Shown here: positions 4,910 to 45,880 of the stretch, piece by piece
Layout: each line of letters begins with the position of its first letter
Numbering within the stretch: the first letter of the stretch is position 1
Origin: an uncultured Bacteroidales bacterium
GTDB taxonomy: Bacteria; Bacteroidota; Bacteroidia; Bacteroidales; Paludibacteraceae
Assembly: GCA_902800525.1 (NCBI GenBank)
Contig: CADCEV010000012.1
Span: 54,824 to 118,823 of the forward strand
Length of the DNA: 64,000 nt
Direction: 5' to 3'
Program-made: the position numbers and the translations under genes
The notes under the pieces: model-generated
Databases searched by the model: none
What the model was told of the DNA's origin: nothing
Seen by the model: only the letters and a program-made list of their open reading frames with translations

Positions 4910-5773
4910 ATGATCCTAATTGCCGACAGCGGGAGTACAAAAGTGCACTGGTGTTTAGTCACCGCCAGTGGTCAGTCTTCGGACGTTTTTACCGATGGAA
5001 TCAACCCGCTTTTCCAGACCACTATCGCGATGCAGAACAGCATCAGTAACCAACTTCTGCCGAAAATAGCACCTTTGCTTTGGGCAGGAACACTGACCCA
5101 TATTTTCTTCTACGGAGCAGGATGTACGCCGGAGAAAAAAGTGTTTGTACAGAAAGCCTTGGAGGCGGTGTTCAAGAAAGCGCAAGTGTTCGTAGCGTCG
5201 GACATGTTAGGCGCCGCGAGGGGTTTGTTGGGACACCAAGCCGGTGTGGCTTGTATCTTGGGAACCGGCAGCGGCAGTTGCTATTACGACGGAGAGAACA
5301 TTGATTGGTGTGTGCCTTCGTTGGGGTATATTTTAGGCGATGAGGGCTCAGCGGCTGTTTTAGGCAAGCGGCTTGTGGGCGATCTGCTCAAAAACCAGTT
5401 AGGAGACGATCTCAAGGAACAGTTCTTCGCCGAGTACGAGACTTCCATGGCGGACATTATTGAGAAAGTGTATCGTCAGCCGTTCCCGAACCGGTTCTTG
5501 GCGAAGCTGTCCAAGTTCTGCGCGGATCATATAGAAGACCAGCGCATTCACGACCTGGTTTATGACCATTTCGTGCAGTTCATCCGCCGCAATTTAGTGC
5601 AGTACAAATCCAAAGCACCGGTGGGTTTTGTGGGATCCATTGCGTATTATTACAAGCCGATTTTGGAGGAAGCGATGCAAGCAGAAGGACTTCCTATGGG
5701 TACGATTCTGCAAGATCCGATAGAAGGTCTGAAAGAGTACCACAAGGACGTTATTGTACCAACGACGGAGTAA
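4910..5773 (+). CDS. BadF/BadG/BcrA/BcrD-type sugar kinase (N-acetylglucosamine kinase-like)
   Basis: A 287-aa ASKHA-fold ATPase. The N-terminal phosphate-1 motif ([15 protein letters not shown]) begins at residue 3, and the second glycine-rich motif [13 protein letters not shown] lies near 116. Length and motifs fit the family containing N-acetylglucosamine kinase and the clostridial MurK kinase, which phosphorylate amino sugars with ATP. There is no signal peptide, so it acts in the cytoplasm. It leads a plus-strand run with a glycosyltransferase and a SpoIID protein; together with the cell-wall genes nearby this suggests, by inference, peptidoglycan amino-sugar salvage. Its stop codon runs straight into a heptad repeat array that ends at the next start codon. 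Confidence 0.82.
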
Positions 5774-5816
5774 TTCACAATTCACAATGCACAATTCACA
5801 ATTCACAATTCACAAT
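5773..5816 (+). repeat. Heptanucleotide repeat array (ATTCACA type)
   Basis: About six tandem units of ATTCACA, one of them ATGCACA, fill the whole gap between the kinase stop (5771-5773) and the glycosyltransferase ATG at 5818. No ribosome-binding site is visible in it. Confidence 0.9.
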
Positions 5817-5817
5817 A

Positions 5818-7239
5818 ATGATCGATATATTTTATCTTCCGGGCAGAGTGTGTCCGACGAAAGCGATCAAAGAAATCGCGGAAAAGAGTGAGAAGAAATA
5901 CACGATGATCTGTCTCAAACCCGAGATCGAATGGATCTACTTGGGTCAGGAGCGCATGGTACAAGTGATGGAAATGACAGGTGCCACGATGGTTTATGCG
6001 GATCACTTCAATAAAGTACATGGGACAAAGGAAGAAGCGTGGATTATCTCCGAAGCACCGGTGATTGATTATCAAACGGGCGCATTGCGGGATGATTTTG
6101 ATTTTGGAGCGGTGATGCTTTGGGACACGGAGAAGTTGAAAGCGCTGGTGGCGCAGATGGATACGGAATACGAGTTTGCAGGTCTGTATGATCTTCGTCT
6201 CCGTGCAAGCCAATGCACAATTCACAATTCACAATTCACAATTCACAATGCACAATGCACAATTGTCCACATTCCGGAGTATTTGTATTACGAAGTGGAG
6301 ACCGATACCCGCAAGAGCGGTGAGAAACTGTTTGATTATGTCGATCCGCGGAACAGACAAGTGCAGGTGGAAATGGAAGCGTGCGTCACGGAGCACTTGA
6401 AGCGCATCGGGGCATACTTGAAGCCGGGCGAGTACAAGGAACTGCCGAAAGCGGACGACTCGTACCCTGTGACCGCGAGCGTGATTATTCCTTGTAAAAA
6501 CCGCGCGCGCACGATAAAGGATGCGATTCTTAGTGCTCTGAGCCAAAAAGTACGAGAGGGCTATTCGTTCAACGTGATCGTAGTGGATGACAACTCGACC
6601 GACGGAACGGCGGAGATTATTGAAGAATTAAAAATTCAAAATTCAAAATTAATTCATATTGCGCAGGACAAGACCTGGCACGCCATCGGTGGCAACTGGA
6701 ACGTGGCGATTCATGACCCGCGTTGCGGCAAGTACGCTATTCAGCTGGACAGCGACGACACGTACTATGACGAGACCACCGTGCAACGTTTCATTGACGC
6801 GTTTGAATCAATTCACAATGCGCAATGCGCAATGCACAATGTGGCAACGCCGCAGTACGGCATGGTGATCGGTACATACCAATTGACGAATATGGCAGGA
6901 GAGATTTTGCCTCCGGGCGTGATCGACCATCGCGAGTGGACGGACGAAAACGGTCGCAATAACGCACTACGAATCAATGGTTTAGGTGCGCCGAGAGGAT
7001 TCTATGTACCGCTTCTCCGCACGATCAATTACCCGACAACCAAGTACGGCGAGGATTATGCCGTGGGTATCCGTATCGCGCGTGACTACCCTATCGGACG
7101 CATCTATGACGTGGTCTATAACTGCCGACGTTGGGAAGACAACTCCGACGCCAACTGCGATATTGTAGCCATGAACCGAAATAACTGGTACAAAGACCGC
7201 TTGCGCACCTTTGAACTGACGGCACGAATTAAGAATTAA
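5818..7239 (+). CDS. Family 2 glycosyltransferase with N-terminal extension and repeat-derived insertions
   Basis: A 473-aa cytoplasmic protein. Residues 1-120 are an N-terminal domain I do not recognise. The GT-A catalytic domain starts near 220 ([19 protein letters not shown]), continues with [16 protein letters not shown] and has the metal-binding DxD as [10 protein letters not shown] near 307. This identifies an inverting nucleotide-sugar glycosyltransferase; donor and acceptor are unknown. Three stretches come from heptad repeats and are probably not original protein: [17 protein letters not shown] near 135, [10 protein letters not shown] near 272 and [12 protein letters not shown] near 334. 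The ATG follows directly on a repeat array, and the last codons and stop (RIKN, TAA) lie in another. It is probably co-transcribed with the kinase upstream and the SpoIID gene downstream. Confidence 0.82.
6211..6264 (+). repeat. In-frame heptad repeat inside the glycosyltransferase gene
   Basis: About seven units of ATTCACA/ATGCACA within coding sequence. Because 7 is not a multiple of 3, every frame on this strand reads the same stop-free cyclic heptapeptide (IHNSQFT type). The opposite orientation would contain TGA in every frame. Confidence 0.9.
6626..6654 (+). repeat. In-frame heptad repeat (ATTCAAA type) inside the glycosyltransferase gene
   Basis: Units of ATTAAAA/ATTCAAA encode LKIQNSKLI between the conserved beta strand of the GT2 domain and the HIAQDKTWH segment. 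The same sequence type occurs as intergenic arrays elsewhere in the window. Confidence 0.7.
6810..6841 (+). repeat. Second in-frame ATTCACA/ATGCGCA repeat inside the glycosyltransferase gene
   Basis: About four degenerate heptads (ATTCACA, ATGCGCA twice, ATGCACA) encode [11 protein letters not shown] between FIDAFE and VATPQYGMV. It is in the same stop-free orientation as the array at 6211. Confidence 0.8.
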
Positions 7240-7259
7240 AAATTAAGAATTCAAAATTG
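7226..7259 (+). repeat. Heptad array carrying the stop of one gene and the start of the next
   Basis: ATTAAGA/ATTAAAA/ATTCAAA units overlap the last codons and TAA (7237-7239) of the glycosyltransferase and the TTG start (7257) of the SpoIID gene. Confidence 0.85.
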
Positions 7260-8333: not shown

Positions 8334-9465
8334 ATACAAGCACCTCTCCGACGCCGAATGGCGATGGTTCTTACAGCAGGTAGAGGGGCGCGAAAGGACA
8401 GCAGACAAGCTGCCCACTTTTGCGGCGATAGAGGATTGGTGGTACCCCGTGCGCCTCAGCTGCGAGCAGTGTTCGTCCGAACTCACGGCGCGGTACAAAG
8501 CGGAGATCATTCACCCTTCCCTTGAGGGAAGGGACGGGGTTAGGCTTTTAGACCTCACCGGCGGTTATGGCGTAGACACCCTCTTCCTGAGCGAACTTTT
8601 TGAGCACACGCACTATGTGGAGCAGAACGCTGAGTTGTGCAGGATTATGGAACACAATAAGGAAATCAAAAATGAGAAATTAAAAATAAAAAATATCAGC
8701 GTTCATAACTGCACTGCCGAAGAATTCCTTTCTTCCCCCCTTCAGGGGGGAGTTGAGAGGGGCTTCTCTCTGATCTTCGTTGACCCGGCACGAAGAGACA
8801 GCCATGGCGGTAAGGTCTTCCATCTCGAAAACTGCACGCCGAATGTAATCGAACTGTTGCCTGAATTGTTAAAGCTTAGTCAACGATTGTTATTCAAACT
8901 CTCCCCGATGCTGGATATCAGTCAGGCAATAAAAGAGTTGTCAGCCGTCAACTGGGACATTTACGTTGTGGCTATCAAGAATGAAGTCAAAGAAGTGCTG
9001 CTTCTGAGCGGAGGAAACGGAACGATCACCGCCATCGACCTCTCGTGCCCGGAGCAGGCATTCACTTTCACCCGCGAGGAAGAGAGCGCTGCAATCTCCC
9101 TTCCTTTTAGAACAATGTCGGGGTTAGGCTTCTATTTATACGAGCCCAATGCCGCTATTCTCAAAGCCGGGGCATACAAGCTCGTTGCACAACGGTTCAA
9201 TCTCCGCAAACTGGACCCCAACACGCATCTCTATGCCTCAGACACGTACAAAGATAATTTCCCCGGGCGCGTCTGGAAAACCTCTCCCCTTCCCTCTCCA
9301 AAGGAGAGGATGATCCAGCAAGCGAACGTCCTTGTTCGCAATTATCCCCTGACCGCTGAGCAACTGAAAAAGAAAATGCGTCTGAAAGACGGCGGCACGG
9401 AGTATATCATCGGTTGCCGCGTTGCCGGCAAACCCGTGGTCTTGCGGGCTGAAAGGCTCCGCTAA
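8299..9465 (+). CDS. THUMP-like class I SAM-dependent methyltransferase (PG_1098 family)
   Basis: A 388-aa cytoplasmic protein. The SAM-binding motif I is LLDLTGGYGVDTLFLSELF near 76; the motif IV region is LIFVDPARRD near 157. C-terminal to it is the THUMP-like domain with YLYEPNAAILKAGAYKLVAQ near 278 and GTEYIIGCRVAGKPVVLRAE at the end. This arrangement matches the Bacteroidetes family typified by PG_1098; an RNA substrate is presumed but not shown. The ATG overlaps the SpoIID gene by 35 bases, indicating coupled translation. The gene holds at least four short insert-like segments: three or four C/G-rich palindromes (near 8514, 8733, 9103, 9284) and an A-rich heptad-like stretch (8655-8695, EIKNEKLKIKN). 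It converges with the ABC ATPase, whose stop overlaps its own. Confidence 0.85.
   Translation: MSVQDLALQRNKYKHLSDAEWRWFLQQVEGRERTADKLPTFAAIEDWWYPVRLSCEQCSSELTARYKAEIIHPSLEGRDGVRLLDLTGGYGVDTLFLSELFEHTHYVEQNAELCRIMEHNKEIKNEKLKIKNISVHNCTAEEFLSSPLQGGVERGFSLIFVDPARRDSHGGKVFHLENCTPNVIELLPELLKLSQRLLFKLSPMLDISQAIKELSAVNWDIYVVAIKNEVKEVLLLSGGNGTITAIDLSCPEQAFTFTREEESAAISLPFRTMSGLGFYLYEPNAAILKAGAYKLVAQRFNLRKLDPNTHLYASDTYKDNFPGRVWKTSPLPSPKERMIQQANVLVRNYPLTAEQLKKKMRLKDGGTEYIIGCRVAGKPVVLRAERLR
8514..8549 (+). repeat. Small palindromic element in coding sequence (copy 1)
   Basis: Perfect 9-bp arms (CCCTTCCCT at 8514-8522, AGGGAAGGG at 8525-8533) with a 2-base centre, followed by ACGGGGTTAGGCTTTT. It is translated as PSLEGRDGVR just before the SAM-binding strand of the methyltransferase. 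Confidence 0.75.
8733..8768 (+). repeat. Small palindromic element in coding sequence (copy 2)
   Basis: CCCCCC-TTCA-GGGGGG (8735-8750) followed by AGTTGAGAGGGGCTTC. It is translated as SSPLQGGVERG before LIFVDPARRD. The TTCA centre and GGGGCT end match the copy in the ABC ATPase gene. Confidence 0.75.
9103..9140 (+). repeat. Degenerate copy of the palindromic element (copy 3)
   Basis: CCCTTCCTTTTAG followed by GTCGGGGTTAGGCTTCT parallels copy 1 (CCCTTCCCTTGAG, then ACGGGGTTAGGCTTTT), but the central palindrome has decayed. It is translated as LPFRTMSGLG just before the conserved FYLYEPNAAIL. Confidence 0.5.
9284..9312 (+). repeat. Small palindromic element in coding sequence (copy 4)
   Basis: CTCTCCCCTTCCCTCTCC-AAA-GGAGAGG holds a 6-bp inverted repeat (CTCTCC/GGAGAG). 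It is translated as SPLPSPKERM between WKT and IQQANVLV of the methyltransferase. Confidence 0.55.
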
Positions 9466-12120: not shown

Positions 12121-12210
12121 CAATTCTCCCTCAATGAGTGCTCATTTTTACAAAATCATCCCTCAATGAGTGCTCATTTATACAAAATTCTCCCTCAATG
12201 AGTGATTTTT
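12121..12210. repeat. Three 32-bp direct repeats (iterons) upstream of the AAA ATPase
   Basis: The core CCCTCAATGAGTGCTCATTT begins at 12128 and 12160 and recurs shortened at 12192 (CCCTCAATGAGTGATTT), an exact 32-base period, about three helical turns. Each unit contains CTCA-A-TGAG and, in the first two, ATGAG-TG-CTCAT inverted repeats; ACAAAAT separates units. The last unit ends 12 bases before the -33 box of the ATPase promoter, a typical place for a regulator to bind. Confidence 0.9.
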
Positions 12211-12275: not shown

Positions 12276-13463
12276 ATGAATATGATAGATCCTTCTTTGA
12301 TCGCTTATCAAAATGAGCAGTTACGCAAGACACCGAAAACGTTTCATCGGTACATGTATAATCGTCTGCCTTGGGAAAGCCGAATGTTCGGTTTGGTGGG
12401 TCCGCGCGGGGTCGGAAAATCTACACTGTTATTGCAACATTTGGCAGGAAGTCCCGACCGTGAGCAGAGTTTGTACATCTCAGCTGATACGTTGTATCTG
12501 GCATCGCACACGCTGGTAGAGTTGGCGGACAACTTTGTCAAATACGGCGGCGTACGGATGTACATTGACGAGGTACATAAGTACAAAAACTGGTCTCGAG
12601 AGTTGAAACAGATCTACGATACACATGAGTCGCTCAAAGTGATTTTCACGGGTTCATCCATTTTGGACATCATTGAGGGTGAAGCGGATTTGAGCCGACG
12701 AGCGCCTATATACCACATGCAGGGCCTGAGTTTCCGAGAGTACTTGGCTTTGTTTCATCAGATTGATTTGCCTGTTTTCTCCTTGGAACAGATTATCAAA
12801 CACGAAGAAACGGCTGTTTTGGATGCCATTGAGCATCCGTTGATCTATTTCAAACAATACCTTCAAACGGGCTACTATCCTTTCAGCAACGAGCCGGATT
12901 TTGCACTTCGTATAGAGCAGATTGTTCGTCAGACCATTGAGTCGGACATTGCACAATACGCAGATCTGAAAGCCTCTACCGCACGCAAACTGATACAACT
13001 GATGGGTGTCATTTCCGGTATTGCGCCTATGAAACCCAATGCCGACAGTTTGTCTCAGGAAATCGGGGTGAGCAAAAACAATATACCGGACTATTTGGTT
13101 TATCTGGAGAAAGCCGGCATGATCGGTCAACTGAGGGACAATACCGGCGGACTGAGGGGGCTTGGAAAAGTGGAGAAAATTTATATTGACAATCCTAACC
13201 TGATGACCGTTCTGGCTTTCGGCAAACCGGAAACAGGCAATCTGCGCGAGACATTCTTTTATAATCAATCGCGCGTCAATAATAAGGTATTGGCATCGCG
13301 TGTCTCTGATTTCACCATTGGAGACTACACCTTTGAAATTGGAGGCAGAAAAAAAGGAAACAAGCAAATAGAAGACGTACCTGATGGCTTTGTCGTAAAG
13401 GACGACATTGAATTTGGTTCATTCAATACGATTCCTCTATGGGCTTTCGGAATGAATTACTAA
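12276..13463 (+). CDS. AAA-family ATPase with C-terminal DUF4143 domain
   Basis: A 395-aa cytoplasmic protein of the AAA_14/DUF4143 group, frequent in Bacteroidales accessory DNA and of unknown function. Walker A is GLVGPRGVGKSTLLLQ near 40, Walker B is RMYIDEVHKYKNW near 94 and sensor 1 is KVIFTGSSILDI near 119. A winged-helix-like segment lies near 268 (ADSLSQEIGVSKNNIPDYL), followed by the DUF4143 part (KIYIDNPNLMTVLA) and a nuclease-like region (ETFFYNQSRV, FEIGGRKKG). It stands alone behind the iterons and a strong promoter; because it carries a DNA-binding-like segment, autoregulation through the iterons is an inference worth testing. A lipoprotein gene follows 24 bases later and may share the transcript. 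Confidence 0.85.
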   Translation: MNMIDPSLIAYQNEQLRKTPKTFHRYMYNRLPWESRMFGLVGPRGVGKSTLLLQHLAGSPDREQSLYISADTLYLASHTLVELADNFVKYGGVRMYIDEVHKYKNWSRELKQIYDTHESLKVIFTGSSILDIIEGEADLSRRAPIYHMQGLSFREYLALFHQIDLPVFSLEQIIKHEETAVLDAIEHPLIYFKQYLQTGYYPFSNEPDFALRIEQIVRQTIESDIAQYADLKASTARKLIQLMGVISGIAPMKPNADSLSQEIGVSKNNIPDYLVYLEKAGMIGQLRDNTGGLRGLGKVEKIYIDNPNLMTVLAFGKPETGNLRETFFYNQSRVNNKVLASRVSDFTIGDYTFEIGGRKKGNKQIEDVPDGFVVKDDIEFGSFNTIPLWAFGMNY

Positions 13464-17440: not shown

Positions 17441-17589
17441 TTACTATATCAACGACTTCTTCTTCCTCTACCAAGAAACCAAATATAGTACAATTTAACA
17501 AAGTACAAAGTACAAAGAGAGGCGGCGCATGTATGTGCCGCGAGATGCACTCACAAGAGGTAACAAATCAGGCAGATAAACCGACAAAC

Positions 17590-22308: not shown

Positions 22309-22373
22309 AATTGTAAATTGTAAATTGTAAATTGTGCATTGTAAATTGTGAATTGTAAATTGTAAATTGTGAA
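22309..22373 (+). repeat. Heptad array (ATTGTAA type) between porQ and cmk
   Basis: Eight or so units of ATTGTAA with ATTGTGC and ATTGTGA variants fill the gap and end in the GTG start codon of cmk (22369). Confidence 0.9.
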
Positions 22374-23031
22374 TAAGATTATTGTAGCCATAGACGGATA
22401 TTCATCCTGCGGTAAATCTACTATCGCCAAAGAGTTAGCGAAATACGCAGGTTATATTTACGTGGACACAGGCGCCATGTATCGCGCGATAGGTTTATAC
22501 ACGCTTCGAAACGGTCTGACGGACGAGGCTTCTATCATCCAAGCCCTGCCGCAGATACAGGTGGGTTTCATTCAAGCCGGGGGTGCGCAACACGTCACCC
22601 TGAACGGCGAAGACGTCGAATCGCAGATACGCACCTTGGAGGTCGGCAACAGAGCGAGCCAGGTGTCGCAGATCAAAGAAGTACGGGCTTTCCTCGTGGC
22701 GCAACAACAGGCCATGGGAAAGGACAAAGGTATCGTTATGGACGGGCGCGATATAGGAACCGTGGTTTTCCCGAAAGCGGAACTGAAACTGTTCCTCACC
22801 GCCAGCCCCGAAGTGCGTGCACAGAGACGTTTCGACGAACTGGTAGAGAAAGGCGAAAAGCCGGACTACAATGCCGTGTTAGCCGATGTGAACGACCGAG
22901 ACTACCGTGACACACATCGCGCCGAGAGCCCGCTCAGGCAAGCCGAGGATGCGATTGTGGTGGATAACAGCCACATGACCCGCGAAGAACAGATGCAAGT
23001 CATTTATGATTATTTCAATCGATTCAAATAG
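22369..23031 (+). CDS. cmk: (d)CMP kinase
   Basis: A 220-aa cytoplasmic P-loop kinase that phosphorylates CMP and dCMP for nucleotide synthesis. The N-terminus has IVAIDGYSSCGKSTIAKELA and VDTGAMYRAIGLY (substrate-binding region); DGRDIGTVVFPKAELKLFLT lies near 124 and RRFDELVEKGEKPDY near 151. Full-length for the family. The start is GTG inside the heptad array; no upstream ATG gives the conserved start MNKIIVAIDG. The end overlaps ispH by 26 bases. Confidence 0.93.
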   Translation: MNKIIVAIDGYSSCGKSTIAKELAKYAGYIYVDTGAMYRAIGLYTLRNGLTDEASIIQALPQIQVGFIQAGGAQHVTLNGEDVESQIRTLEVGNRASQVSQIKEVRAFLVAQQQAMGKDKGIVMDGRDIGTVVFPKAELKLFLTASPEVRAQRRFDELVEKGEKPDYNAVLADVNDRDYRDTHRAESPLRQAEDAIVVDNSHMTREEQMQVIYDYFNRFK

Positions 23032-23899
23032 CGGTTTCTGTTTCGGCGTCACGCGCGCCATTAACACCGCCCAGACAGAGCTCCGCAACGGAGCTCTTTA
23101 TTGCTTAGGCGACATCGTCCATAACGGTCAGGAAGTAGCCCGTTTGGAAGAAGCCGGCCTGCAGACAATCGACTACGACGATCTCCGGACGCTGCCTTCT
23201 CACTCGCGCGTGCTGCTCCGGGCACACGGCGAACCGCCTTCAACGTATTGGATTGCCCGGCAACGGGGGATCCAACTCTTTGATGCGACCTGTCCGGTGG
23301 TGAAGAAATTGCAAGACCGTATTCGCGCGTGCTACGAGGCGCACAAGAACGATGAAGCCCTGCCGCCGCAGATTGTCATTTACGGCAAAGCCGGACATGC
23401 GGAAGTAATAGGTCTCCAAGGTCAGACTAATAATACCGCTATCGTCATTGAGAACGAAGCGCAACTGAACCTGCTTGATTTCTCGCGACCGATCTATCTC
23501 TTTTCGCAGACCACCAAGTCCGTAGAAGGCTTTCAGAGCCTCGTGGAAGCGATCAAATCACAATTCACAGATCACAATTCACCATTAGCTTTCGAAGCGC
23601 ACGACACGATTTGCCGCAACGTGGCAAACCGTGTAGCGCAGTTACAGGCTTTTGCCCGGGAGAACGACATCGTACTCTTTGTCGGCGGGACCAAGAGTTC
23701 CAATGCCCGCGTGCTGTTCAATCATTGCTTGGAGGCGAACCCCAACACCTATTTCCTCAGCAGCGCAGAAGAGATGAGCGAATCACTCATCAACGAATGC
23801 CGTGCAGCAGAGCGTGTCGGCATCTGCGGTGCAACCAGTACGCCACAATGGCTCATGGAAAAAGTAAGGGACAAGCTTTCGCTCATCCCTTCCTTCTAA
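23006..23899 (+). CDS. ispH: 4-hydroxy-3-methylbut-2-enyl diphosphate reductase (IspH/LytB)
   Basis: A 297-aa iron-sulfur enzyme making IPP and DMAPP in the last step of the MEP isoprenoid pathway. The three cluster cysteines are visible: GFCFGVTRAI near residue 12, LFDATCPVVKKL near 96 and HDTICRNVANR near 203. VGGTKSSNARVLF near 229 is the substrate-binding block. Translation is coupled to cmk by overlap. Residues KSQFTDHNSP near 188 come from an in-frame ATTCACA-like repeat (23557-23586) just ahead of the third cysteine region, so this essential enzyme apparently tolerates the insertion there. Confidence 0.94.
   Translation: MIISIDSNSGFCFGVTRAINTAQTELRNGALYCLGDIVHNGQEVARLEEAGLQTIDYDDLRTLPSHSRVLLRAHGEPPSTYWIARQRGIQLFDATCPVVKKLQDRIRACYEAHKNDEALPPQIVIYGKAGHAEVIGLQGQTNNTAIVIENEAQLNLLDFSRPIYLFSQTTKSVEGFQSLVEAIKSQFTDHNSPLAFEAHDTICRNVANRVAQLQAFARENDIVLFVGGTKSSNARVLFNHCLEANPNTYFLSSAEEMSESLINECRAAERVGICGATSTPQWLMEKVRDKLSLIPSF
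23557..23586 (+). repeat. In-frame ATTCACA-type repeat inside ispH
   Basis: CACAATTCACAGATCACAATTCACCATT is read as SQFTDHNSPL in three or four degenerate heptad units, in the same stop-free orientation as the glycosyltransferase copies. Confidence 0.6.
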
Positions 23900-27532: not shown

Positions 27533-29449
27533 GTGAAATCGCTTATTGCCGCCATATTACTGATTGCGAACTTCTCGCTGGAGGATATTGTCCTCGATAT
27601 CTACAACGCCGTTTCAGAGTTTGGAGAGGTGGAATATGAGCAGTTACAGGCGGATTTGTACGCCATCCATGAGTCACCGATTGACCTGAATCATACCAGC
27701 GACGAAGAGTTGAGCCAGCTCTATTTTCTCTCACCGCATCAGATAGACGAAATACTGCTTTACGCCGACAAACATCCGTTTGTGAGTTTGTATGAGTTGC
27801 GGCTCATTTCTTCCTTGACGGAATACGAGATACGCGATTTGTTGCCGTTCGTCAAGGTTGATCCGCCAAGTGCGGACGAATCGGCTTATAATACTATAAA
27901 GTACGCGCACGACGTGTTCGCGCACGCGAGGCATGAACTCACCATGCGCGTTGATGCACGTGACATAGAGAATTTCGGAGGCAGCGACCCGATGTTTGTC
28001 CGGACGAAATACCGGTTCGACTACCAGCGGCGCGTGCTTTTCGGCGCGCAACTGAGTCGTCCGGCAGGTGGTCAAGCCCAAGACCTGCAATACGGTGCAT
28101 TCTTGCAGTTGAGGGATATTCACCCGCATCTGCACAATGTGGTAGCCGGTAATTTTCAAGCGTCCTTTGGTCAAGGGTTGGTCTTCGCGCCTGTGTTCCA
28201 TAACGGCAAATCCGCTTATGTGCAATCCGCTGCGTATAACCGTCAGGGTCTGCGGTATTACTCCTCGGTGGATGGCGCGGGTTTGCACGGAGCGGGAGCT
28301 ACGGCGAGGTGGTATTGGAGTAAAGCCACGCGATTGGATGCAACCGCGCTCTATTCGCTCAAACGCGCCAATGACAGCACGTGGCATCACCTCATCGGCG
28401 CGAACCTGACGTTTCGACACAATCACCTCCAAGTGGAGCTGAATGCTGCGCAGAATATATGGTCCGACAGTATTCATCCCTATAACAATGCCGCTTACAA
28501 CCAGCGTTATTTCCGGGGAAGACACCAAGCCGTGATAGGCGCGTCCGCGCGTTATAACCACGGATGGTTTGACGCCTTTGCAGAAATAGCCACCGCCGAG
28601 AACTACGAACGCTTTCCGGAGAATGCCGGTTCACCAACTAACGCTCCTCATTGGGGCATAGGAGTGATTGCCGGAAGCCGATTCTACCCCACCGATGGTC
28701 TTTCTCTCATTGCGCTCTACCGCTATTACAGCCCCTATTTCGACAACACATTAGGCTATGCTTTTTCCGAAACATCCCGCATCGGCGATGAGAACGGAGC
28801 CTATCTCGGCATAGAGATCACGCGATGGAAAGGCTGGAAGATCAGCAGTTACGGCGATGTTTTCCGCTTCAGCGGTCCGAAGTATGGCATTCCCTATGCG
28901 CCTTCTATCGGCTATGACGTGATACTCGACTTCACCAATACTCATTTAGGTAGCTTATCGGACGCGCGGTATGCCGGATGGTGGGTGAACGGACGGATCA
29001 GAGCAAGGAAGAAGGGTGATTTGAGTACTTATTCCGCGCGGGCGCAGTTCAATTGGCAAAGCGGCGGATGGTCCTTGCGCACAATCGCCGATGCCAATAT
29101 CACGACCGAAAAGGGATTCTCAGGCTATGGAGTAAGTATCGCGCAGGATGCGGGCTATGCGTTTGCAGAGGTACCTCTGTCTCTCCGCGGGCGCGTGCAG
29201 TATTTCGATGCGCGGAATTGGGACAACCGCATTTATATGTACGAGCACGATGTGCTTTATGCTTTTTCCATTCCGGCAGTCTATGGTTTAGGCGGAAGAG
29301 CGTATATCTGTCTGAAATGGCAGATTCTTGCACCCTTAGCGCTCTATCTGCGTGTGAGCGAAACAGTTTATGCACCTAATTGGGCGGCGGAACATCAACG
29401 CGCTATGACAAGAACGGATGTACATTTGTTGCTGAGGGCAAAGTTATGA
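27533..29449 (+). CDS. Helix-hairpin-helix outer-membrane beta-barrel protein
   Basis: A 638-aa exported protein. A hydrophobic N-terminus (KSLIAAILLIANFSLED) precedes two helix-hairpin-helix units of ComEA type (about 43-115: SPIDLNHTSDEELSQLYFLS and FVSLYELRLISSLTEYEIRD). A long region of alternating strands rich in Tyr, Trp and Gly then runs to the C-terminus (RTDVHLLLRAKL), as in outer-membrane barrels. The family is Bacteroidetes-specific and uncharacterised as far as I know; DNA binding is not implied by the HHH units in this setting. The GTG start lies only 4 bases past the -7 box, so the mRNA is probably leaderless. A heptad-like array and bidirectional terminator follow. Confidence 0.72.
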   Translation: MKSLIAAILLIANFSLEDIVLDIYNAVSEFGEVEYEQLQADLYAIHESPIDLNHTSDEELSQLYFLSPHQIDEILLYADKHPFVSLYELRLISSLTEYEIRDLLPFVKVDPPSADESAYNTIKYAHDVFAHARHELTMRVDARDIENFGGSDPMFVRTKYRFDYQRRVLFGAQLSRPAGGQAQDLQYGAFLQLRDIHPHLHNVVAGNFQASFGQGLVFAPVFHNGKSAYVQSAAYNRQGLRYYSSVDGAGLHGAGATARWYWSKATRLDATALYSLKRANDSTWHHLIGANLTFRHNHLQVELNAAQNIWSDSIHPYNNAAYNQRYFRGRHQAVIGASARYNHGWFDAFAEIATAENYERFPENAGSPTNAPHWGIGVIAGSRFYPTDGLSLIALYRYYSPYFDNTLGYAFSETSRIGDENGAYLGIEITRWKGWKISSYGDVFRFSGPKYGIPYAPSIGYDVILDFTNTHLGSLSDARYAGWWVNGRIRARKKGDLSTYSARAQFNWQSGGWSLRTIADANITTEKGFSGYGVSIAQDAGYAFAEVPLSLRGRVQYFDARNWDNRIYMYEHDVLYAFSIPAVYGLGGRAYICLKWQILAPLALYLRVSETVYAPNWAAEHQRAMTRTDVHLLLRAKL

Positions 29450-29498
29450 GGTGGTTTGAAGTTGTTTGAAATTGTTTGAAATAGTTTGAGGTGGTTGG
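29446..29498 (+). repeat. Tandem TTTGAAATTG-type 10-bp repeats
   Basis: Five degenerate 10-base units of the GTTTGAAATT type follow the stop of the helix-hairpin-helix gene. They are the same kind of array as the heptads but with a different period. Confidence 0.75.
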
Positions 29499-29500
29499 AA

Positions 29501-29539
29501 ACAAAAAAGGAGTTTGCATCTCGCAACCTCCTTTTTTGT
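29501..29539. terminator. Bidirectional terminator between the HHH gene and tRNA-Met
   Basis: A 12-bp stem (ACAAAAAAGGAG, 29501-29512, with CTCCTTTTTTGT, 29528-29539) and a 15-base loop; it gives a U-run on both strands. Confidence 0.85.
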
Positions 29540-31534: not shown

Positions 31535-32533
31535 ATGGACATTTTAAATCAAATGATTGCGCGCGCGAAGGCAAATCCGCAGCGCATTGTGTTGCCGGAA
31601 GGTGACGAACCTCGTACGTTGGAAGCTGCAAACATTTTGTTGAAAGACAAGATTGCGCAGCTTATTTTGATCGGAGACCCTGAGAAAATCAAGGGAATGG
31701 CTGCTGAAAAGGGCTATGAGCATATTTGTGAGGCGAAGATCGTTGATCCGATTCACGATCCGAAAATGCCGGAGTACGCGAAGCTGCTGTTTGAGTTGCG
31801 TAAGGCAAAAGGCATGACGGAAGAAGAGGCTGCGAAGAAAGCACAGGATCCGTTGTATTTGGGTTGTTTGATGATCAAGGCAGGAGACGCGGACGGTGAG
31901 CTCGCAGGTGCTCGTGGTACGACGGCAGATACTATTCGTCCGGCATTCCAGATTCTGAAGACCAAACCGGGTTGCTCTATTGTCAGCGGCGCATTTTTGA
32001 TGTTCACGCCGGCTAAGCATTTAGGCGAGGACGGATTCCTGCTGTTTGCGGACTGCGCGGTTAACCCGAATCCGGATGCAAAACAGTTGGCAGAGATCGC
32101 TATCTCGACGGCAGAGACCGCACGTGCTATCGCAGGCATCGAGCCGCGCGTAGCTATGCTGAGCTTCTCGACCAAGGGTAGTGCTAAACATGAATTGGTT
32201 GATAAAGTACAAGAGGCAACAAAGTTGGCAAAAGAGATGGCTCCTGAGTTGGCACTCGACGGCGAGTTGCAGGCAGATGCAGCGCTGGTAGAGAGCGTAG
32301 CGAAGACCAAAGCACCGGGTAGCAACGTGGCAGGTAAGGCTAATGTGCTCGTGTTCCCGGATCTGCAGGCAGGTAACATCGGTTACAAGCTCGTTGAGCG
32401 TTTCAGCGGCGCGGATGCAGTTGGTCCGATCTTGCAGGGTATTGCTGCTCCGGTAAATGACCTGAGCCGCGGATGCAAAGTACAGGACATTGTGCAAATG
32501 GTGGTTATTACCGCTAATCAGGCGATAAAATAA
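31535..32533 (+). CDS. pta: Phosphate acetyltransferase
   Basis: A 332-aa enzyme that converts acetyl-CoA and phosphate to acetyl phosphate. It is the short single-domain type without the N-terminal DRTGG/P-loop part. Recognisable blocks: RIVLPEGDEPRTLEAANILL near 18, GELAGARGTTADTIRPAFQI near 121, MLSFSTKGSAKHE near 208 and DLQAGNIGYKLVERFSGADA near 278. It forms an operon with ackA, from which it is separated only by a heptad array, and provides ATP by acetate fermentation. Confidence 0.95.
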   Translation: MDILNQMIARAKANPQRIVLPEGDEPRTLEAANILLKDKIAQLILIGDPEKIKGMAAEKGYEHICEAKIVDPIHDPKMPEYAKLLFELRKAKGMTEEEAAKKAQDPLYLGCLMIKAGDADGELAGARGTTADTIRPAFQILKTKPGCSIVSGAFLMFTPAKHLGEDGFLLFADCAVNPNPDAKQLAEIAISTAETARAIAGIEPRVAMLSFSTKGSAKHELVDKVQEATKLAKEMAPELALDGELQADAALVESVAKTKAPGSNVAGKANVLVFPDLQAGNIGYKLVERFSGADAVGPILQGIAAPVNDLSRGCKVQDIVQMVVITANQAIK

Positions 32534-32564
32534 ATTAAAAATTAAAAATTACGAATTGCGAATT
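32533..32564 (+). repeat. Heptad array (ATTAAAA type) between pta and ackA
   Basis: ATTAAAA units followed by ATTACGA/ATTGCGA/ATTATGA variants run from the pta stop to the ackA ATG at 32565; the final ATTATGA contains the ATG. Confidence 0.85.
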
Positions 32565-33755
32565 ATGAAGATATTAGTATTGAACTGCGGAAGTAGCAGT
32601 ATTAAGTATAAGCTCTTTGAGATGGAGAGCAAGGAAGTGATGGCACAAGGCGGGATCGAGAAAATCGGTTTGCCGGATTCGTTCCTGCAGGTTAAACTGC
32701 CGAACGGAGAGAAAGTGAAATTCGAGAAACCGATGCCGGAACATACCGTGGGTATCGAGTTGATTCTGGAGAAGCTTGTTGATCCGGAGATCGGTTGCAT
32801 CAAAGAGTTGAAAGAGATCAACGCTGTGGGTCACCGTGTAGTCCATGGCGGTGAGAAATTCAACAAGTCCGTTCTGATCACGCCGGAAGTAAAAGCGCAG
32901 ATCATCGAGTGTATTGATCTCGCTCCGCTGCACAACCCTGCTAACCTGAAGGGTATTGATGCGATAGAGAAGATTCTGCCGGGCGTTCCGCAGGTAGCTG
33001 TATTCGATACCGCTTTCCACCAGACGATGCCGGACTACGCGTACATGTACGCTATTCCTTATGAGTTGTATGAGAAATACGCGATCCGTCGTTACGGTTT
33101 CCACGGCACAAGCCACCGTTACGTGAGCGCGCGCGTATGCGAATATTTAGGTGTAGATCCGAAAGGCAAGAAGATCGTGACCGCACATATCGGCGGCGGC
33201 GGAAGCTGCACGGCTGTGATGGACGGTAAGAGCGTAGATACGAGTATGGGTCTGACGCCGGTAGAGGGACTCGTTATGGGTACTCGTGCGGGTGATCTGG
33301 ATCTCGGAGCGGCTACGTTCATTATGGACAAAGAGCACCTGAGCACGGCTGAGTTCAACAACTTGGTGAACAAGAAGTCCGGTTTGATGGGTGTGAGCGG
33401 TGTTTCGAGCGACTGCCGTGACATCGAGGCTGCTATCAATCAAGGCAACAAACGTGCTGATCTGGCGCGTAAGATGTTCATCTATCGTCTGAAGAAATAC
33501 ATCGGCGCTTATGCTGCTGCGATGAACGGAATTGACATTCTGGTGTTTACCGCAGGTATCGGCGAGAACGATCCTTATATCCGCGCAGAAGTGATGAAAG
33601 GTTTGTCGTTCCTGGGTATCGAGTTGGACGAAGAAGCCAACAAGGTACGCGGCGAAGAGCGCATCATTTCGAAACCGGGTAGCAAAGTGACAGTTGTTCT
33701 CATTCCGACGGATGAGGAGCTGATGATCGCAAGCGACACAGAGGCGCTCATCTAA
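32565..33755 (+). CDS. ackA: Acetate kinase
   Basis: A 396-aa ASKHA-fold kinase that makes ATP and acetate from acetyl phosphate. Motifs: KILVLNCGSSSIKYKLFEM at the start, AVFDTAFHQTMP near 144, YGFHGTSHRYVS near 173, VTAHIGGGGSCTAVMDGKS near 204 and DILVFTAGIGENDPYIRAEV near 322. The frame opens three codons earlier at a TTG, but the ATG at 32565 gives the conserved start. Its stop lies in the loop of a perfect 8-bp hairpin and two further hairpins follow. Confidence 0.96.
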   Translation: MKILVLNCGSSSIKYKLFEMESKEVMAQGGIEKIGLPDSFLQVKLPNGEKVKFEKPMPEHTVGIELILEKLVDPEIGCIKELKEINAVGHRVVHGGEKFNKSVLITPEVKAQIIECIDLAPLHNPANLKGIDAIEKILPGVPQVAVFDTAFHQTMPDYAYMYAIPYELYEKYAIRRYGFHGTSHRYVSARVCEYLGVDPKGKKIVTAHIGGGGSCTAVMDGKSVDTSMGLTPVEGLVMGTRAGDLDLGAATFIMDKEHLSTAEFNNLVNKKSGLMGVSGVSSDCRDIEAAINQGNKRADLARKMFIYRLKKYIGAYAAAMNGIDILVFTAGIGENDPYIRAEVMKGLSFLGIELDEEANKVRGEERIISKPGSKVTVVLIPTDEELMIASDTEALI

Positions 33756-35516: not shown

Positions 35517-35545
35517 AAATTAAAAATTAAAAATTAAAAATTATT
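35517..35545 (+). repeat. Heptad array (ATTAAAA type) ending in a TTG start
   Basis: Three to four ATTAAAA units lead into ATTATTGG, whose TTG (35544) is the first in-frame start of the prenyltransferase. Confidence 0.85.
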
Positions 35546-36491
35546 GGAACAATTTAGAGACATAATGAGGTTAGTGAGGTGGGGCAATGTGCTCTTCCTC
35601 GGGGCGTTGATATGGGTGATGGAGAAATGGGTAGCTACGCCGGTATTGCGTGAAGCGGGATTCGGCGAACAACTCCCATGGTATGTGACGCTGTTGCTGA
35701 TGTGTGCAGCGATGCTGATCGGCGCCGGCGGTTACGTCATCAACGATTATTTCGACGTCAAGATAGACCGGATCAACCGGCCGGACGAGGTGGTAGTGAC
35801 ACGCAGCGTGAGCAAGCCCGCCGCGGTGCGGCTGAGTATCGCGCTGAGCGGAACAGGTATTGCGTGCGGCATTGCTGCAGCAGTGCTGTTACGGAGTTTG
35901 ACATTAGGCATTCTGTTTGTGCTCATCCCCGGGCTGTTGTGGTTCTATTCGTCGAGTTACAAACGGCTGTTCCTCATCGGAAACCTCATTATAGCGCTGT
36001 TAGCCGGTATGACACCGCTGATTGTAGCGATGGCGAATGTAGCGCAGTTGGAAGTGCTATATGCCGGCATTCTGCCTTACATGAGTCTGCCGCATGATTT
36101 GTATTGCTGGCTCGGCGGTTTCGGATTGTTCGCCTTTCTGCTGACATGGATCCGCGAGATCGTCAAAGACCTGCAGGACCAGATGGGTGACCGTGAGTTA
36201 GAATGTCACTCGATGCCGATTGTATGGGGTGAGATATGGACGAAAGTGTTTGTAACGGGGCTGATTGTACTGACCATCGCTATTATCGGACACCTTTGGT
36301 ACCACGTACTCCCCTTCCCTATCAGTTGGAGCAGCCTCAGCACACGGTACATCGTTTTCGGCATTGTTATTCCGCTGCTATGCGCACTTTGCTTACTATG
36401 GGCAGCGAAGATACCGAGCGACTACAAGAGTTGCCAGCAGATACTTAAACTGGCAATGGTATTCGGGACGCTGTATAGTTATGTGATATAA
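35544..36491 (+). CDS. UbiA-family prenyltransferase (geranylgeranylglycerol-phosphate synthase-like)
   Basis: A 315-aa polytopic membrane enzyme with about eight to nine helices. The two Asp-rich motifs that bind prenyl diphosphate via magnesium are present: INDYFDVKIDRINRPDE near 67 and REIVKDLQDQMGDRE near 202. Bacteroidetes members are usually annotated as geranylgeranylglycerol-phosphate geranylgeranyltransferase; menaquinone synthesis is a possible alternative, and the acceptor cannot be told from sequence. The start is TTG at 35544 (supplied by the repeat array) or the ATG at 35565 (MRLVRWGNV). It converges with maf across a bidirectional terminator. Confidence 0.82.
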   Translation: MEQFRDIMRLVRWGNVLFLGALIWVMEKWVATPVLREAGFGEQLPWYVTLLLMCAAMLIGAGGYVINDYFDVKIDRINRPDEVVVTRSVSKPAAVRLSIALSGTGIACGIAAAVLLRSLTLGILFVLIPGLLWFYSSSYKRLFLIGNLIIALLAGMTPLIVAMANVAQLEVLYAGILPYMSLPHDLYCWLGGFGLFAFLLTWIREIVKDLQDQMGDRELECHSMPIVWGEIWTKVFVTGLIVLTIAIIGHLWYHVLPFPISWSSLSTRYIVFGIVIPLLCALCLLWAAKIPSDYKSCQQILKLAMVFGTLYSYVI

Positions 36492-36520
36492 GTTGAGAGT
36501 TGAGAGTTGAGAGTTGAGAG
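36491..36520 (+). repeat. Heptad array (GTTGAGA type)
   Basis: Four exact GTTGAGA units directly after the prenyltransferase stop, followed by two TTTAGTAGAAAG-like units to about 36555. Confidence 0.88.
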
Positions 36521-36558
36521 AAGTCGTTTAGTAGAAAGATTTTTAGTAGAAAGTTATA

Positions 36559-42223: not shown

Positions 42224-42224
42224 A

Positions 42225-42909: not shown

Positions 42910-42957
42910 CAAAGTTACTCATTATTTTGCATATATGCAAATTTTTTCGTACCTTTG
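42910..42957. promoter_or_regulatory. Divergent overlapping promoters sharing a perfect 16-bp palindrome
   Basis: TTTGCATATATGCAAA (42926-42941) gives both -33 boxes. Plus: TTTG 42926-42929, 20-bp spacer, TACCTTTG 42950-42957. Minus: CAAA 42938-42941, 20-bp spacer, TAACTTTG (42917-42910). The palindrome is identical to that at 27497-27512. Confidence 0.82.
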
Positions 42958-42981
42958 CAGCGTTTTTCTTAAAAATAAGGT

Positions 42982-43488
42982 ATGAAATCGTTTATTTATA
43001 GTGAGAGTACCATCGCTTTTGTGACCGCAGCGGCACAGACATGCCTGCTAATTGAGAAAGCCGGCGAGCATGAGCGGGAGGAATGGAGAGAGCAGATGCT
43101 GAGACTTCTGCCGGTATTGTATCTGCGTACGCGTTTGTTGGAACAGGCGGAGTGCGTGATGGAAGAAGAGCCGCAGCGGTTTGTGGCGGAAGAGGATTAT
43201 AACTATGCGCTGGTCGGGATCCGCGAGTTGTTGGGTTCGGACGATGCGTATCTGGATGTTTTTGTAGATCAGGGTATCTACACCGACGAGGTGCAAACAG
43301 CCTATATCTCGGAGGGTCTGGCGGATATCTACCAGGAACTCAAGGACATGGCAGCTGCGTTCCAGACAGGCGAAGAGCCTATTATGAACGACGCGGTGGT
43401 GCTTTGCCGCGAGGCGTTTGAGGCACATTGGGGTCAGAAACTGCTGGCCGTAATGAGAGCGTTGCACGCCATGACAATTGATAATTGA
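42982..43488 (+). CDS. DUF5063 family protein
   Basis: A 168-aa all-helical cytoplasmic protein matching the Bacteroidetes DUF5063 family (FVTAAAQTCLLIEKAGEHE, LLPVLYLRTRLLEQAE, FVAEEDYNYALVGIRELLG, EAFEAHWGQKLLAVMRALH). Function unknown. The family commonly precedes a DEDD exonuclease gene, as here, so the two probably act together or at least are co-expressed. The last codons and TGA (MTIDN, stop) lie inside a heptad repeat array that runs to the next start. Confidence 0.85.
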   Translation: MKSFIYSESTIAFVTAAAQTCLLIEKAGEHEREEWREQMLRLLPVLYLRTRLLEQAECVMEEEPQRFVAEEDYNYALVGIRELLGSDDAYLDVFVDQGIYTDEVQTAYISEGLADIYQELKDMAAAFQTGEEPIMNDAVVLCREAFEAHWGQKLLAVMRALHAMTIDN

Positions 43489-43514
43489 CAATTGAGAATT
43501 GAGAATTGAGAATT
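43476..43514 (+). repeat. Heptad array (ATTGAGA type) carrying a stop and a start codon
   Basis: ATTGATA, ATTGACA and three ATTGAGA units. It holds the DUF5063 TGA (43486-43488) and the TTG start of the exonuclease (43513). Confidence 0.9.
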
Positions 43515-44346
43515 GGAAGTGGAAGAGAATCATTATATACATAGAATCAGCAAGGAACTGCTGCAATGGATGCCGGTGGATGCGTTTGAGGGCAAAGTGA
43601 TTGTAGTGGACAAGGAGGAAATGGTAGCCGAAGCGGTGAATTACCTCAGGCAGCAGTCTGTGCTCGGGGTCGATACAGAGGCGCGGCCGAGTTTCCAAAG
43701 GGGCATACACTACCCCACCGCCTTGGTACAAATCGCTACGCATGAGCGGTGTTACCTGTTCCGTCTGACGCATGTGGGCATGCCGCAGGAGTTAGCGGAC
43801 CTGTTTGCGGATCCCAACATCCTGAAAGTGGGTTTGGCATTCCGGGACGACATCAACGGGCTTCGCCGGAGACGCAATTTCACGCCGGCTAACTGCGTGG
43901 ATATTCAGTCCATGGTTGTCAAATACGGTATTTTGGATTTGGGTTTGCAAAAGATCTATGCCATTTGTTTCGGCAAGAAGATCTCCAAAGCGCAGCAGTT
44001 GACCAATTGGGAGAACAGCCACCTCACGCCGGAGCAGGCGCGTTATGCCTCCACGGACGCATGGGCGACACTGCTGATCTACGAAGACCTGATTGCACAT
44101 GAACCCTTGGCAGCAAAGGAAGTAGAGGCACTCAAACGCGAAGAGAAAGAGCGGATGATCGAGCATCAGCAGGAGATACAGGACCAGCGGTTGCGCGAGC
44201 AAGGCATAGAACCGCCTCCCCATTTGACGTTGGAAGAACGCGAAGAGCGACAGGCCGCCAAACGCCGCGAATCCCGCAAACGCAAGCGGCAACGAGTGAG
44301 CGCGCGCAAGAAAGAACAGAAAGAACAGAAAGAACAAAACAAATAA
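43513..44346 (+). CDS. 3'-5' exonuclease, RNase D-like DEDDy domain with charged C-terminal extension
   Basis: A 277-aa protein. The DEDDy exonuclease residues are visible: VLGVDTEARPSF near 50 (Asp, Glu), KVGLAFRDDINGLRR near 108 (Asp) and ARYASTDAWATLLIYEDL near 176 (Tyr, Asp). The last 75 residues are a highly basic and acidic helical tail (RREEREERQ-type, ending ARKKEQKEQKEQNK), probably nucleic-acid binding. There is no HRDC domain, so it is not classical RNase D. The start is TTG within the repeat array; the first ATG in frame (residue 20, MPVDAFEG) is a possible alternative that keeps all motifs. Alkaline phosphatase starts 5 bases after its stop. Confidence 0.85.
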   Translation: MEVEENHYIHRISKELLQWMPVDAFEGKVIVVDKEEMVAEAVNYLRQQSVLGVDTEARPSFQRGIHYPTALVQIATHERCYLFRLTHVGMPQELADLFADPNILKVGLAFRDDINGLRRRRNFTPANCVDIQSMVVKYGILDLGLQKIYAICFGKKISKAQQLTNWENSHLTPEQARYASTDAWATLLIYEDLIAHEPLAAKEVEALKREEKERMIEHQQEIQDQRLREQGIEPPPHLTLEEREERQAAKRRESRKRKRQRVSARKKEQKEQKEQNK

Positions 44347-44350
44347 TGAT

Positions 44351-45766
44351 ATGAAACGAATCCTTTTTATCGCGCTATGGGCAGCGATAAGTCTTTGTAA
44401 CTTCGCACAGGCGAAGTATGTATTTTATTTCATCGGCGACGGTATGGGTCATAACCAAGTGCTGAGCGCCGAGATGTACCGATCCGCCCTCGCCGGCGAG
44501 CCTCTCGGGCGCGTACAGACGCTGATGACCACGTTCCCCTATTCCGGCAGTGCTTCGACGTATTCGAAGAGCAACGGGATCACCGATTCGGCAGCTGCGG
44601 GTACGTGTCTCGCTACAGGTAGCAAGACGACGAACGGCACCTTGGGTCTGGACGAGAAGGGCAATAAACTGACCACCATCGCGGAGGATCTGAAAGCACA
44701 CGGCTGGGGTGTGGGTATTATGACGACGGTAGCTATTGACCATGCAACTCCTGCGGCTTTCTACGCGCACGTAGAGAAACGCAACGAGTACTACAAGATC
44801 GGCAAACAGCTCTGCAACAGCCATTTCGATTTCTTCGGCGGCGCCGGTTTCCATTACCCGGAAGGCAAGCACGATGACAAGCCGGAGAACCTGTACCGCA
44901 AAGCCGAGCAGGCAGGTTATGTCATTGCGCACGGCTATGACGAGGCACAAGCGCTGATGAGTGACTCGGCAGCGCAGGACAAGAAGATGATTCTTGTGCA
45001 AGCCACCGATGACCAAGGCGCCAAACACGGTGACAACCTGCCTTATGCCATTGACCGCAAGGAGGGCGATTTGACCTTGGCGCAGATCGTGAGCACCGCT
45101 ATCCCGTTCCTGGAGGAGAGATATGAGCGGTGGTTTATGATGGTAGAGGGCGGTATGATCGACTATGCCTGCCACGGAGACGATGCCGCTACTTCTATCG
45201 GCGAAGTGTGGGATATGGACGAAGCAATGCAACAAGCCTATGCTTTCTACAAACAACACCCGGAAGAGACGCTGATCATCGTGACCGCGGACCACGAGAC
45301 AGGCGGTTTGGCACTCGGAAACAGCGACTATACGCTGCACTTGGACCAACTGCAATACCAGAAATGCTCCTCTTGGGCACTGAGCGACCAGATCCAGAAA
45401 CTCTTTGACGACAACAAGAAACCGTCTTGGGCGCAAGTACAGGCTATTTACATGGAGCAATTGGGTCTTTGGACGGAAGTGGAACTGACCGACGAGGAAG
45501 AGGACGAGCTGAAAGCCACCTATAAGAGCGTTATTGAGCATAAGAGCAAGGACGTAAAAACGATGTACAAGACCATCAACAAGTTAGGCGACGCGGGCAT
45601 TGCGATGCTGAACAAGAAAGCCCATGTGGGTTGGACCACACGTGCACACAGCGCGCACGCCGTTCCTATTTTTGCTATCGGCGCCGGCGCACAGTACTTC
45701 ACAGGCTGGCATGACAATACCGAAATCGTTCCACTTATCCGCAAGGCGATAAAAGAGTATAATTAA
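44351..45766 (+). CDS. Alkaline phosphatase
   Basis: A 471-aa exported enzyme that removes phosphate from monoesters. The signal peptide ends near residue 20 (ISLCNFAQA). Metal and active-site motifs of the PhoA type: VFYFIGDGMGHNQ near 24, the nucleophile Ser in GITDSAAAGTCLATGSK near 78, MMVEGGMIDYACHGDD near 264, LIIVTADHETGGLALG near 311 and TRAHSAHAVPIFAIGAGAQY near 434. All metal ligands I can place are kept. It is the last gene of the DUF5063-exonuclease run. No Pho-box was recognised. Confidence 0.93.
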   Translation: MKRILFIALWAAISLCNFAQAKYVFYFIGDGMGHNQVLSAEMYRSALAGEPLGRVQTLMTTFPYSGSASTYSKSNGITDSAAAGTCLATGSKTTNGTLGLDEKGNKLTTIAEDLKAHGWGVGIMTTVAIDHATPAAFYAHVEKRNEYYKIGKQLCNSHFDFFGGAGFHYPEGKHDDKPENLYRKAEQAGYVIAHGYDEAQALMSDSAAQDKKMILVQATDDQGAKHGDNLPYAIDRKEGDLTLAQIVSTAIPFLEERYERWFMMVEGGMIDYACHGDDAATSIGEVWDMDEAMQQAYAFYKQHPEETLIIVTADHETGGLALGNSDYTLHLDQLQYQKCSSWALSDQIQKLFDDNKKPSWAQVQAIYMEQLGLWTEVELTDEEEDELKATYKSVIEHKSKDVKTMYKTINKLGDAGIAMLNKKAHVGWTTRAHSAHAVPIFAIGAGAQYFTGWHDNTEIVPLIRKAIKEYN

Positions 45767-45880
45767 TTGAGAATTGAGAATTGACAATTGACAATTAAAC
45801 TCACGAGATCACGAGGTCACGAGATATCGAGATCACGAAATATCGAAATATCGAAATATCGAAATATCGAAATATCGAAA
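45766..45880 (+). repeat. Mixed tandem repeats after the alkaline phosphatase gene
   Basis: ATTGAGA/ATTGACA heptads (to about 45795), then degenerate CACGAGAT units, then five exact 8-base ATATCGAA units (about 45838-45880). The array fills the space up to the terminator. Confidence 0.88.

Follow-up and report, generated by a model that had tools for sequence, protein, structure and literature searches.

Heptanucleotide tandem arrays at gene junctions and inside genes of an uncultured Bacteroidales bacterium, probably dispersed repeats of high turnover

We analyzed a stretch of 64,000 nucleotides from an uncultured Bacteroidales bacterium (G000:C12:54824-118823, here referred to as the window), which lies within a genome of 2.39 Mb in 33 contigs and in which tandem arrays of 7-base units (heptads) occur at gene junctions and inside genes. 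The arrays are probably dispersed heptad repeats of high turnover, which share a small vocabulary of words and are tolerated where they are harmless, while the stop and start codons that some of them supply would be a by-product. The closest named relatives are Bacteroidales and Paludibacteraceae metagenome assemblies, many of them of rumen origin according to their record titles.

Period 7 dominates the tandem repeats of this genome. In the window and 40 sampled stretches of 20 kb, together 864 kb, 113 period-7 arrays reached the cut-off score of at least 14, one of which, a stretch of N, was excluded, and the remaining 112 compare with none in a first-order Markov (Markov-1) control sequence. 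Between 0 and 28 arrays were obtained for each of the remaining periods from 4 to 15, with the exception of period 14 (twice seven), which gave 74. Extrapolated from these data, about 300 arrays are expected in the whole genome. Period 7 also leads in 38 loci of the named relatives (50 arrays, 3 in the control) and in 40 stretches around PF05635 genes (45 arrays, 2 in the control). A single dominant 7-base process had been proposed in an earlier reading of the window from its letters (the sequence-only reading), and the census bears this out; the coordinates obtained for the window with Tandem Repeats Finder (TRF) also agree with those of that reading to within a few bases (Table 1).

The arrays draw on few words. 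The main ones, on either strand, are AATTCAC, AATTGA[T/C/G], AATTAAA, AATTGTA and AGTTGA[G/T], which recur across sites and relatives. Two arrays of the genome share a unit with a probability of 0.110, compared with 0.002 for random intergenic 7-mers (about 55-fold), and of the 283 AATT-NNN-AATT units 256 belong to six of the 32 strand-collapsed triplets. Moreover, a composite module, (AGTTGA)n-AGAAGTC[GT]T[CT]TAGT, was matched nine times in the 864 kb, at eight places, and once in contig C56 of genome G021, the relative used as reference for turnover (its main aligned blocks are 92–95% identical at the nucleotide level). A search with AATTNNNAATTNNNAATTNNNAATT gave 304 overlapping matches in the present genome and 4 in the backward control; its distribution is patchy, with matches in 40 of 61 genomes and 0 to 177 in other members of the genus. 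The shared vocabulary suggests that arrays have been copied between sites, in addition to slippage.

Table 1. Heptad arrays of the window and the genes beside or around them
Positions	Strand	Array and context
5772..5816	+	AATTCAC, six units; fills the gap from TAA 5771-5773 to ATG 5818 (TRF, open reading frames)
6211..6263	+	AATTCAC/AATGCAC in the GT2 glycosyltransferase gene (5818-7239); encodes a 19-residue stretch
6626..6650	+	AATTCAA in the GT2 gene; equal length in G021
6816..6841	+	AATGCGC in the GT2 gene; G021 lacks 18 bp of it
7226..7258	+	AATTAAG/AATTAAA; holds the GT2 stop (7237-7239) and touches the SpoIID/LytB start TTG 7257
8663-8695		Weaker heptad run in a PG_1098/THUMP-like gene
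22309..22374	+	AATTGTA/AATTGTG; ends in the cmk start GTG 22369
23554..23582	+	Degenerate run of AATTCAC units in a variable IspH loop (KSQFTDHNSPLAF); equal length in G021
32532..32569	+	AATTAAA/AATTACG/AATTGCG; from the pta stop (32531-32533) to ackA ATG 32565
35517..35543	+	AATTAAA; before the UbiA start TTG 35544
36491..36532	+	AGTTGAG array and AGAAGTCGTTTAGT module after the UbiA gene (TRF period-7 part 36491-36520)
43472..43515	+	AATTGAC/AATTGAG; holds the DUF5063 stop (43486-43488) and precedes the exonuclease gene
45765..45796	+	AATTGAG/AATTGAC; after the alkaline phosphatase gene (stop 45764-45766)

We then compared 18 repeats of the window with G021, of which 17 could be mapped and the one at 17498 could not. 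Many of them differ. The array at 5772 measures 45 bp in the window and 10 bp in G021, where a single AATTGAG fills the gap; the same gap holds AATTCGT in L131, and in L129 and L134 there is no gap at all, the GT2 ATG directly following the upstream coding sequence. The arrays at 7226 and 22309 are 33 and 62 bp long in the window and 26 and 33 bp long in G021, respectively, while the one at 6211 is reduced from 53 to 32 bp, that is by 21 bp or 7 amino acids, and the loop at this place is short in more distant orthologues. In G021 the array at 32532 has 296 bp of other sequence in its place, the array at 36491 is absent after the stop, and the one at 43472 is replaced by AGTTGAG units and a AGAAGTCGTCTAGT module; the array at 45765 is present in G021, with an unreliable length, since the flank mapped inside the array. 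The suggestion that repeat number may vary between strains is thus confirmed between relatives, both by whole-unit steps (33 to 26 bp, 53 to 32 bp) and by swapped units. In the orthologous gap between the amylase and UbiA genes, 34 genomes carry different heptads, and 19 of the 34 reach a period-7 score of 8, which is a low bar without a control of its own. Gaps also seem to exchange whole modules, as with the filler containing a short hairpin (GCCGGATGGCATCCGGC) in the pta-ackA gaps of L074, L044, L045, L056 and L070.

Arrays inside genes were absent from the sequence-only reading. The glycosyltransferase gene holds three of them, and two further genes have weaker runs; in the IspH loop, L162 and L163 encode KSQISNLKSQI where the window has residues derived from AATTCAC. 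An AATTCAC array also lies beside a putative 16S rRNA gene start (recognized by eye), on the leader side, and the contig ends of L011 and L014 are alike (bases 1-260). Across the 864 kb, called genes contain 34 of the 112 arrays and the other 78 are non-genic, whereas coding density predicts about 98 and 14, respectively. The arrays are thus mainly intergenic, and with 34 of them in genes the statement that they are placed exactly at gene junctions does not hold. Gene calls came from a simple home-made caller (625 genes, 88% coding), which puts some starts wrongly, such as that of UbiA at 35619, and the distances to starts and stops given below depend on these calls.

Of the 78 non-genic arrays, the 73 with both neighbours inside the stretch entered the distance counts, and random placement of arrays within the same gaps served as the null. 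Upstream stops are hugged, with an array within 10 bp in 45 of 78 stop-facing sides (null 29.6±2.6), and starts are not enriched, with 22 of 68 start-facing sides (null 27.2±2.6). The sequence-only reading had expected both codons to lie closer to arrays than in a control, which is supported for stops and not for starts. It had also placed the arrays in operons; the share of gap arrays between co-directional genes, 60 of 73, gives no sign of such a preference when set against 468 of 584 for all gaps. In the window, open reading frames end at 7239 and 43488, so that two upstream stops are inside arrays as claimed, and four further stops overlap the first array unit (5771-5773, 32531-32533, 36489-36491 and 45764-45766). 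Stops in all three frames were found in 39 of the 60 arrays in co-directional gaps and in 1 of the 34 in genes, and no stop in any frame in 10 of 60 and 23 of 34, respectively. In gaps, words of the ATTGA type stand 22:5 for the sense against the other strand, and inside genes 3:12 (p 1.8e-4); the overall ratio is 25:17, so that they show no clear strand preference until the reading frame sorts them. These counts show that stop supply follows from the word of an array and its strand, and for this reason we prefer a by-product to a device.

Start codons are another matter. Four non-ATG starts had been claimed to lie in arrays (TTG 7257, GTG 22369, TTG 35544 and TTG 43513), and all of them exist as boundaries of open reading frames. 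At the cmk start, 17 of 20 relatives have ATG at the same position (some without any gap), G021 has GTG with fewer units and two are unreadable, which indicates that the array took over the start codon; GTG 22369 is therefore array-borne as claimed, and judged by its orthologues cmk is the only one of the four where such a takeover is clear. At the SpoIID start the position is supported by orthologues, with ATG in L134, L135 and L137, GTG in L129 and L130 and TTG in G021, L131 and L133. Supply by the array is not, because L130 and L133 have their GTG and TTG without a heptad run at that place, and a non-ATG codon thus needs no array. The same division applies to UbiA, whose start position is supported: in the 34 genomes with both genes aligned, the codon is TTG in 26, ATG in 4, CTG in 3 and GTG in 1, with filler that varies by species ahead of it, and the TTG looks ancestral rather than array-made. 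For the exonuclease gene TTG 43513 is doubtful, since the ATG of G021, L225, L226 and L228 aligns with GTG 43519, which is the better guess for the start; the ATG aligns with TTG 43513 in L223 and with other residues in L217-L219, L224 and L227. Between pta and ackA, TRF splits the array into 32532-32551 and a second row to 32569, and the ackA ATG, in an AATT-ATG context, carries the array on. Across the 864 kb, 17 of the 22 start codons beside arrays are ATG and the excess of non-ATG starts is not significant (p 0.17; 22 starts), so that non-ATG array starts are not a rule and a genome-wide bias toward them was rejected.

We propose that arrays gain and lose units through slippage while DNA is being synthesized; loops of 7 bases should go unnoticed by mismatch repair. 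Unit swaps and new sites may arise when an existing array is copied elsewhere, for example by template switching, and such insertions would survive where they do little harm, as at gene junctions, in variable protein loops and in the 16S leader. On the strand whose word holds TAA or TGA, at least three copies put a stop in every frame, so that the upstream gene ends in the array, which then reads as a junction; on the opposite strand it is often open and is read through as an in-frame insert. If stop content decides between gap and in-frame insert in this manner, the capture of a stop, or occasionally of a start, is a by-product.

Several points weigh against this explanation. Six of the 17 mapped repeats have the same length in G021 (6626, 8663, 23554, 26783, 35517 and 44309), so not all of them are fast. 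The contrast in stops between gap and in-gene arrays is partly circular, as the gene calls themselves let a gene end at a stop within an array, and the closeness of stops beyond random gap placement (45 against 29.6) may come from selection for the supply of stops. Units are shared between species with a probability of 0.138, largely due to AATTCTC; such sharing is as frequent as within the genome and is also expected from word-biased slippage common to the genus. A copying agent was not found: the REP-associated transposase family PF01797 gave one weak match below the cut-off in this genome and none in the array-rich genomes G021 and G034, and repeats driven by such transposases were rejected on these grounds. 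The copy number of PF05635 genes is weakly correlated with that of arrays (Spearman 0.38 in the genus and 0.37 over 61 genomes). Lastly, G021 is a metagenome assembly and the present genome probably is one likewise; an assembly artefact as the source of the arrays is unlikely, because the amylase-UbiA array matches G021 in unit and length and in-gene arrays change in frame.

Among the alternatives, local slippage comes closest, and we still regard it as unlikely. Each array would have grown in place from a resident 7-mer, with AATT-type words strongly favoured and no spread between sites. Whole-unit changes at several sites relative to G021 and the prevalence of the same words across species agree with this, and word-biased slippage across the whole genus is possible; heptads are, moreover, more frequent than any other class of long repeats in the majority of genomes examined (Mrazek et al. 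2007, as summarized in PMC4679880). However, unit sharing at about 55 times the level of random intergenic 7-mers, a composite module with a non-heptad tail at eight places, and units swapped at one site between close relatives speak against growth in place.

Somewhat less probable again is a translational device between operon genes, in which arrays supply stops and starts and set, and possibly vary, the coupling of translation. The hugging of stops and the takeover of the cmk start codon fit such a device, and AT-rich filler could matter in Bacteroidetes, which initiate without Shine-Dalgarno sequences and in which A at -3 is a positive determinant (PMC6847099). Nevertheless, starts and co-directional gaps are not enriched, about a third of the arrays (34 of 112) are inside called genes, and orthologous junctions are often without an array or have another unit. 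An A at -3 is also not significantly enriched beside arrays (11 of 22 starts, compared with 250 of 598) and was rejected as a benefit of them, and nothing was found in favour of coupling set by arrays, as the sequence-only reading had suggested.

Three of 37 genomes have a PF05635 gene in the pta-ackA gap, where the window has an array, and for this reason PF05635 loci were examined. PF05635 is the 23S rRNA-intervening sequence protein, a four-helix bundle, and in 23S rRNA intervening sequences its reading frame lies between complementary arms. We sampled 43 of 94 matches in the genus (15 genomes), the three copies of the present genome, all outside the window, and 20 of 67 matches from 8 genomes elsewhere in the order, 66 loci in all (among them L084-L086, L087-L126 and L187-L206), mostly from stronger matches; some are orthologous in related species and thus not fully independent, and the reading frame of L126 is short (96 aa). 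Complementarity between upstream and downstream arms averaged 16.4 for matched and 8.5 for mismatched arms (permutation p 1e-4), and in 31 of the 66 loci no arm scored better than the own partner. Direct similarity was raised less (11.4 against 8.4), and 165 genes of the present genome with gaps on both sides gave means of 8.8 inverted and 10.1 direct. The predicted RNA duplex of the arms averaged -41.1 compared with -25.7 kcal/mol. In other orders, 30 loci from 30 genomes (L238-L267, the best matches of a 99-genome draw, with a doubtful 38-aa reading frame in L267) gave 13.4 against 8.6 inverted (p 1e-4).

The arms differ between loci and often consist of heptads or other short repeats. PF05635 genes across Bacteroidota thus tend, by these alignments, to sit between locus-specific complementary arms, and the loci look like intervening-sequence arrangements between protein genes. 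On the other side, the direct score is the higher one in 11 of the 46 loci from the genus and in 3 of the 20 from the rest of the order, and the three pta-ackA copies (L052, L068 and L075, outside the 66 loci) have direct arms. That these genes are messenger RNA intervening sequences across Bacteroidota, with arms remade from the heptads of the current genome while complementarity is kept and with solitary arrays as donors or relics, is a speculative idea that we hold to be improbable. In the literature covered (titles and abstract openings, mostly without subscription journals), nothing addressed PF05635 genes with inverted arms or repeats. The likeness to 23S rRNA intervening sequences is the PF05635 reading frame between complementary arms; the differences are the position between protein-coding genes, as judged by reading frames and sequence, and the variation of arms by locus. 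The further notion that the solitary arrays are traces of a PF05635-linked mobile system, as emptied or half sites, is very improbable: the genes do lie between complementary arms in the genus, the order and other orders, the arms of L084 and L086 are built from the array words of their own genome, and pta-ackA is a shared site, but three copies do not explain about 300 arrays, the correlation across genomes is weak, direct similarity of the arms is raised too, and the exceptions with direct arms, including the pta-ackA copies, point the other way. An origin of all arrays from PF05635 genes was rejected on the same copy number and correlations.

Other repeats were seen in the window. An 8-bp array (TCACGAGA/CGAAATAT) at 45801-45880 follows the heptad array 3' of the alkaline phosphatase gene and is shorter in G021, a 10-bp array (GTTTGAAATT) between genes at 29442-29501 is 20 bp longer there, and a 32-bp direct repeat of 2.4 copies (12127-12204) lies upstream of an open reading frame at 12276. 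The genome also encodes the type IX secretion protein PorQ.

If dispersed heptads of high turnover are indeed behind the arrays, a rapid mutational process with a vocabulary of its own rewrites the ends of genes, now and then a start codon, and certain protein loops in this genus, and start-site annotation and intergenic comparison must allow for array turnover. The spread of heptad words between sites becomes testable in related genomes, and the PF05635 loci offer a concrete test of whether intervening sequences of the 23S type also exist in messenger RNAs.

Among known systems, the short tandemly repeated repetitive (STRR) sequences of Cyanobacteria are tandem heptads, mainly non-coding, for which an excess of 7-nt units is known and slippage has been proposed; the present arrays resemble them as mainly non-coding heptads, with 78 of 112 outside called genes where about 14 are expected. 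Repetitive extragenic palindromic (REP) elements and their REP-associated tyrosine transposases (RAYT) differ in that the arrays have no association with such a Y1 transposase, given one weak match below the cut-off here and none in G021 or G034. The TAACTGA direct repeats described for marine Beggiatoaceae, Cyanobacteria and some Bacteroidetes (MacGregor 2015, PMC4679880) are mostly intergenic, sometimes in open reading frames and lineage-specific, and closely related Cyanothece strains differ in them by indels that are mostly multiples of 7 nt; in these respects, and as tandem heptads, they are like our arrays. Rotated, TAACTGA reads AACTGAT, one base from AATTGAT, which (class AATTATC) is the nearest unit in the 864 kb, where the TAACTGA class itself is not found. 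The Maribeggiatoa repeats, as described in that article, are one word placed mostly just upstream of start codons, while the present arrays have a dictionary of words, hug stops, lie in genes in 34 of 112 cases and swap words at one site. Borg elements carry fast-evolving tandem repeats in gaps and open reading frames, as our arrays do, but those are described as independently arisen (PMC9879509), and here few words of one length recur. The long simple sequence repeats of Mrazek et al. (2007, via PMC4679880), for which an excess of 7-nt units was reported and slippage proposed, have units of 5–11 nt in runs longer than chance, as found here (112 against 0 period-7 arrays). Whole-unit copy changes occur at two of our sites (33 to 26 bp and 53 to 32 bp), the other sites being otherwise changed or unchanged. 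Unlike such repeats as summarized there, the present arrays have words strongly shared across sites and a composite dispersed module, suggesting copying between sites. The arrays are a variant of the known heptad simple-sequence repeats, and the shared vocabulary and the swapping of units are their uncommon parts.

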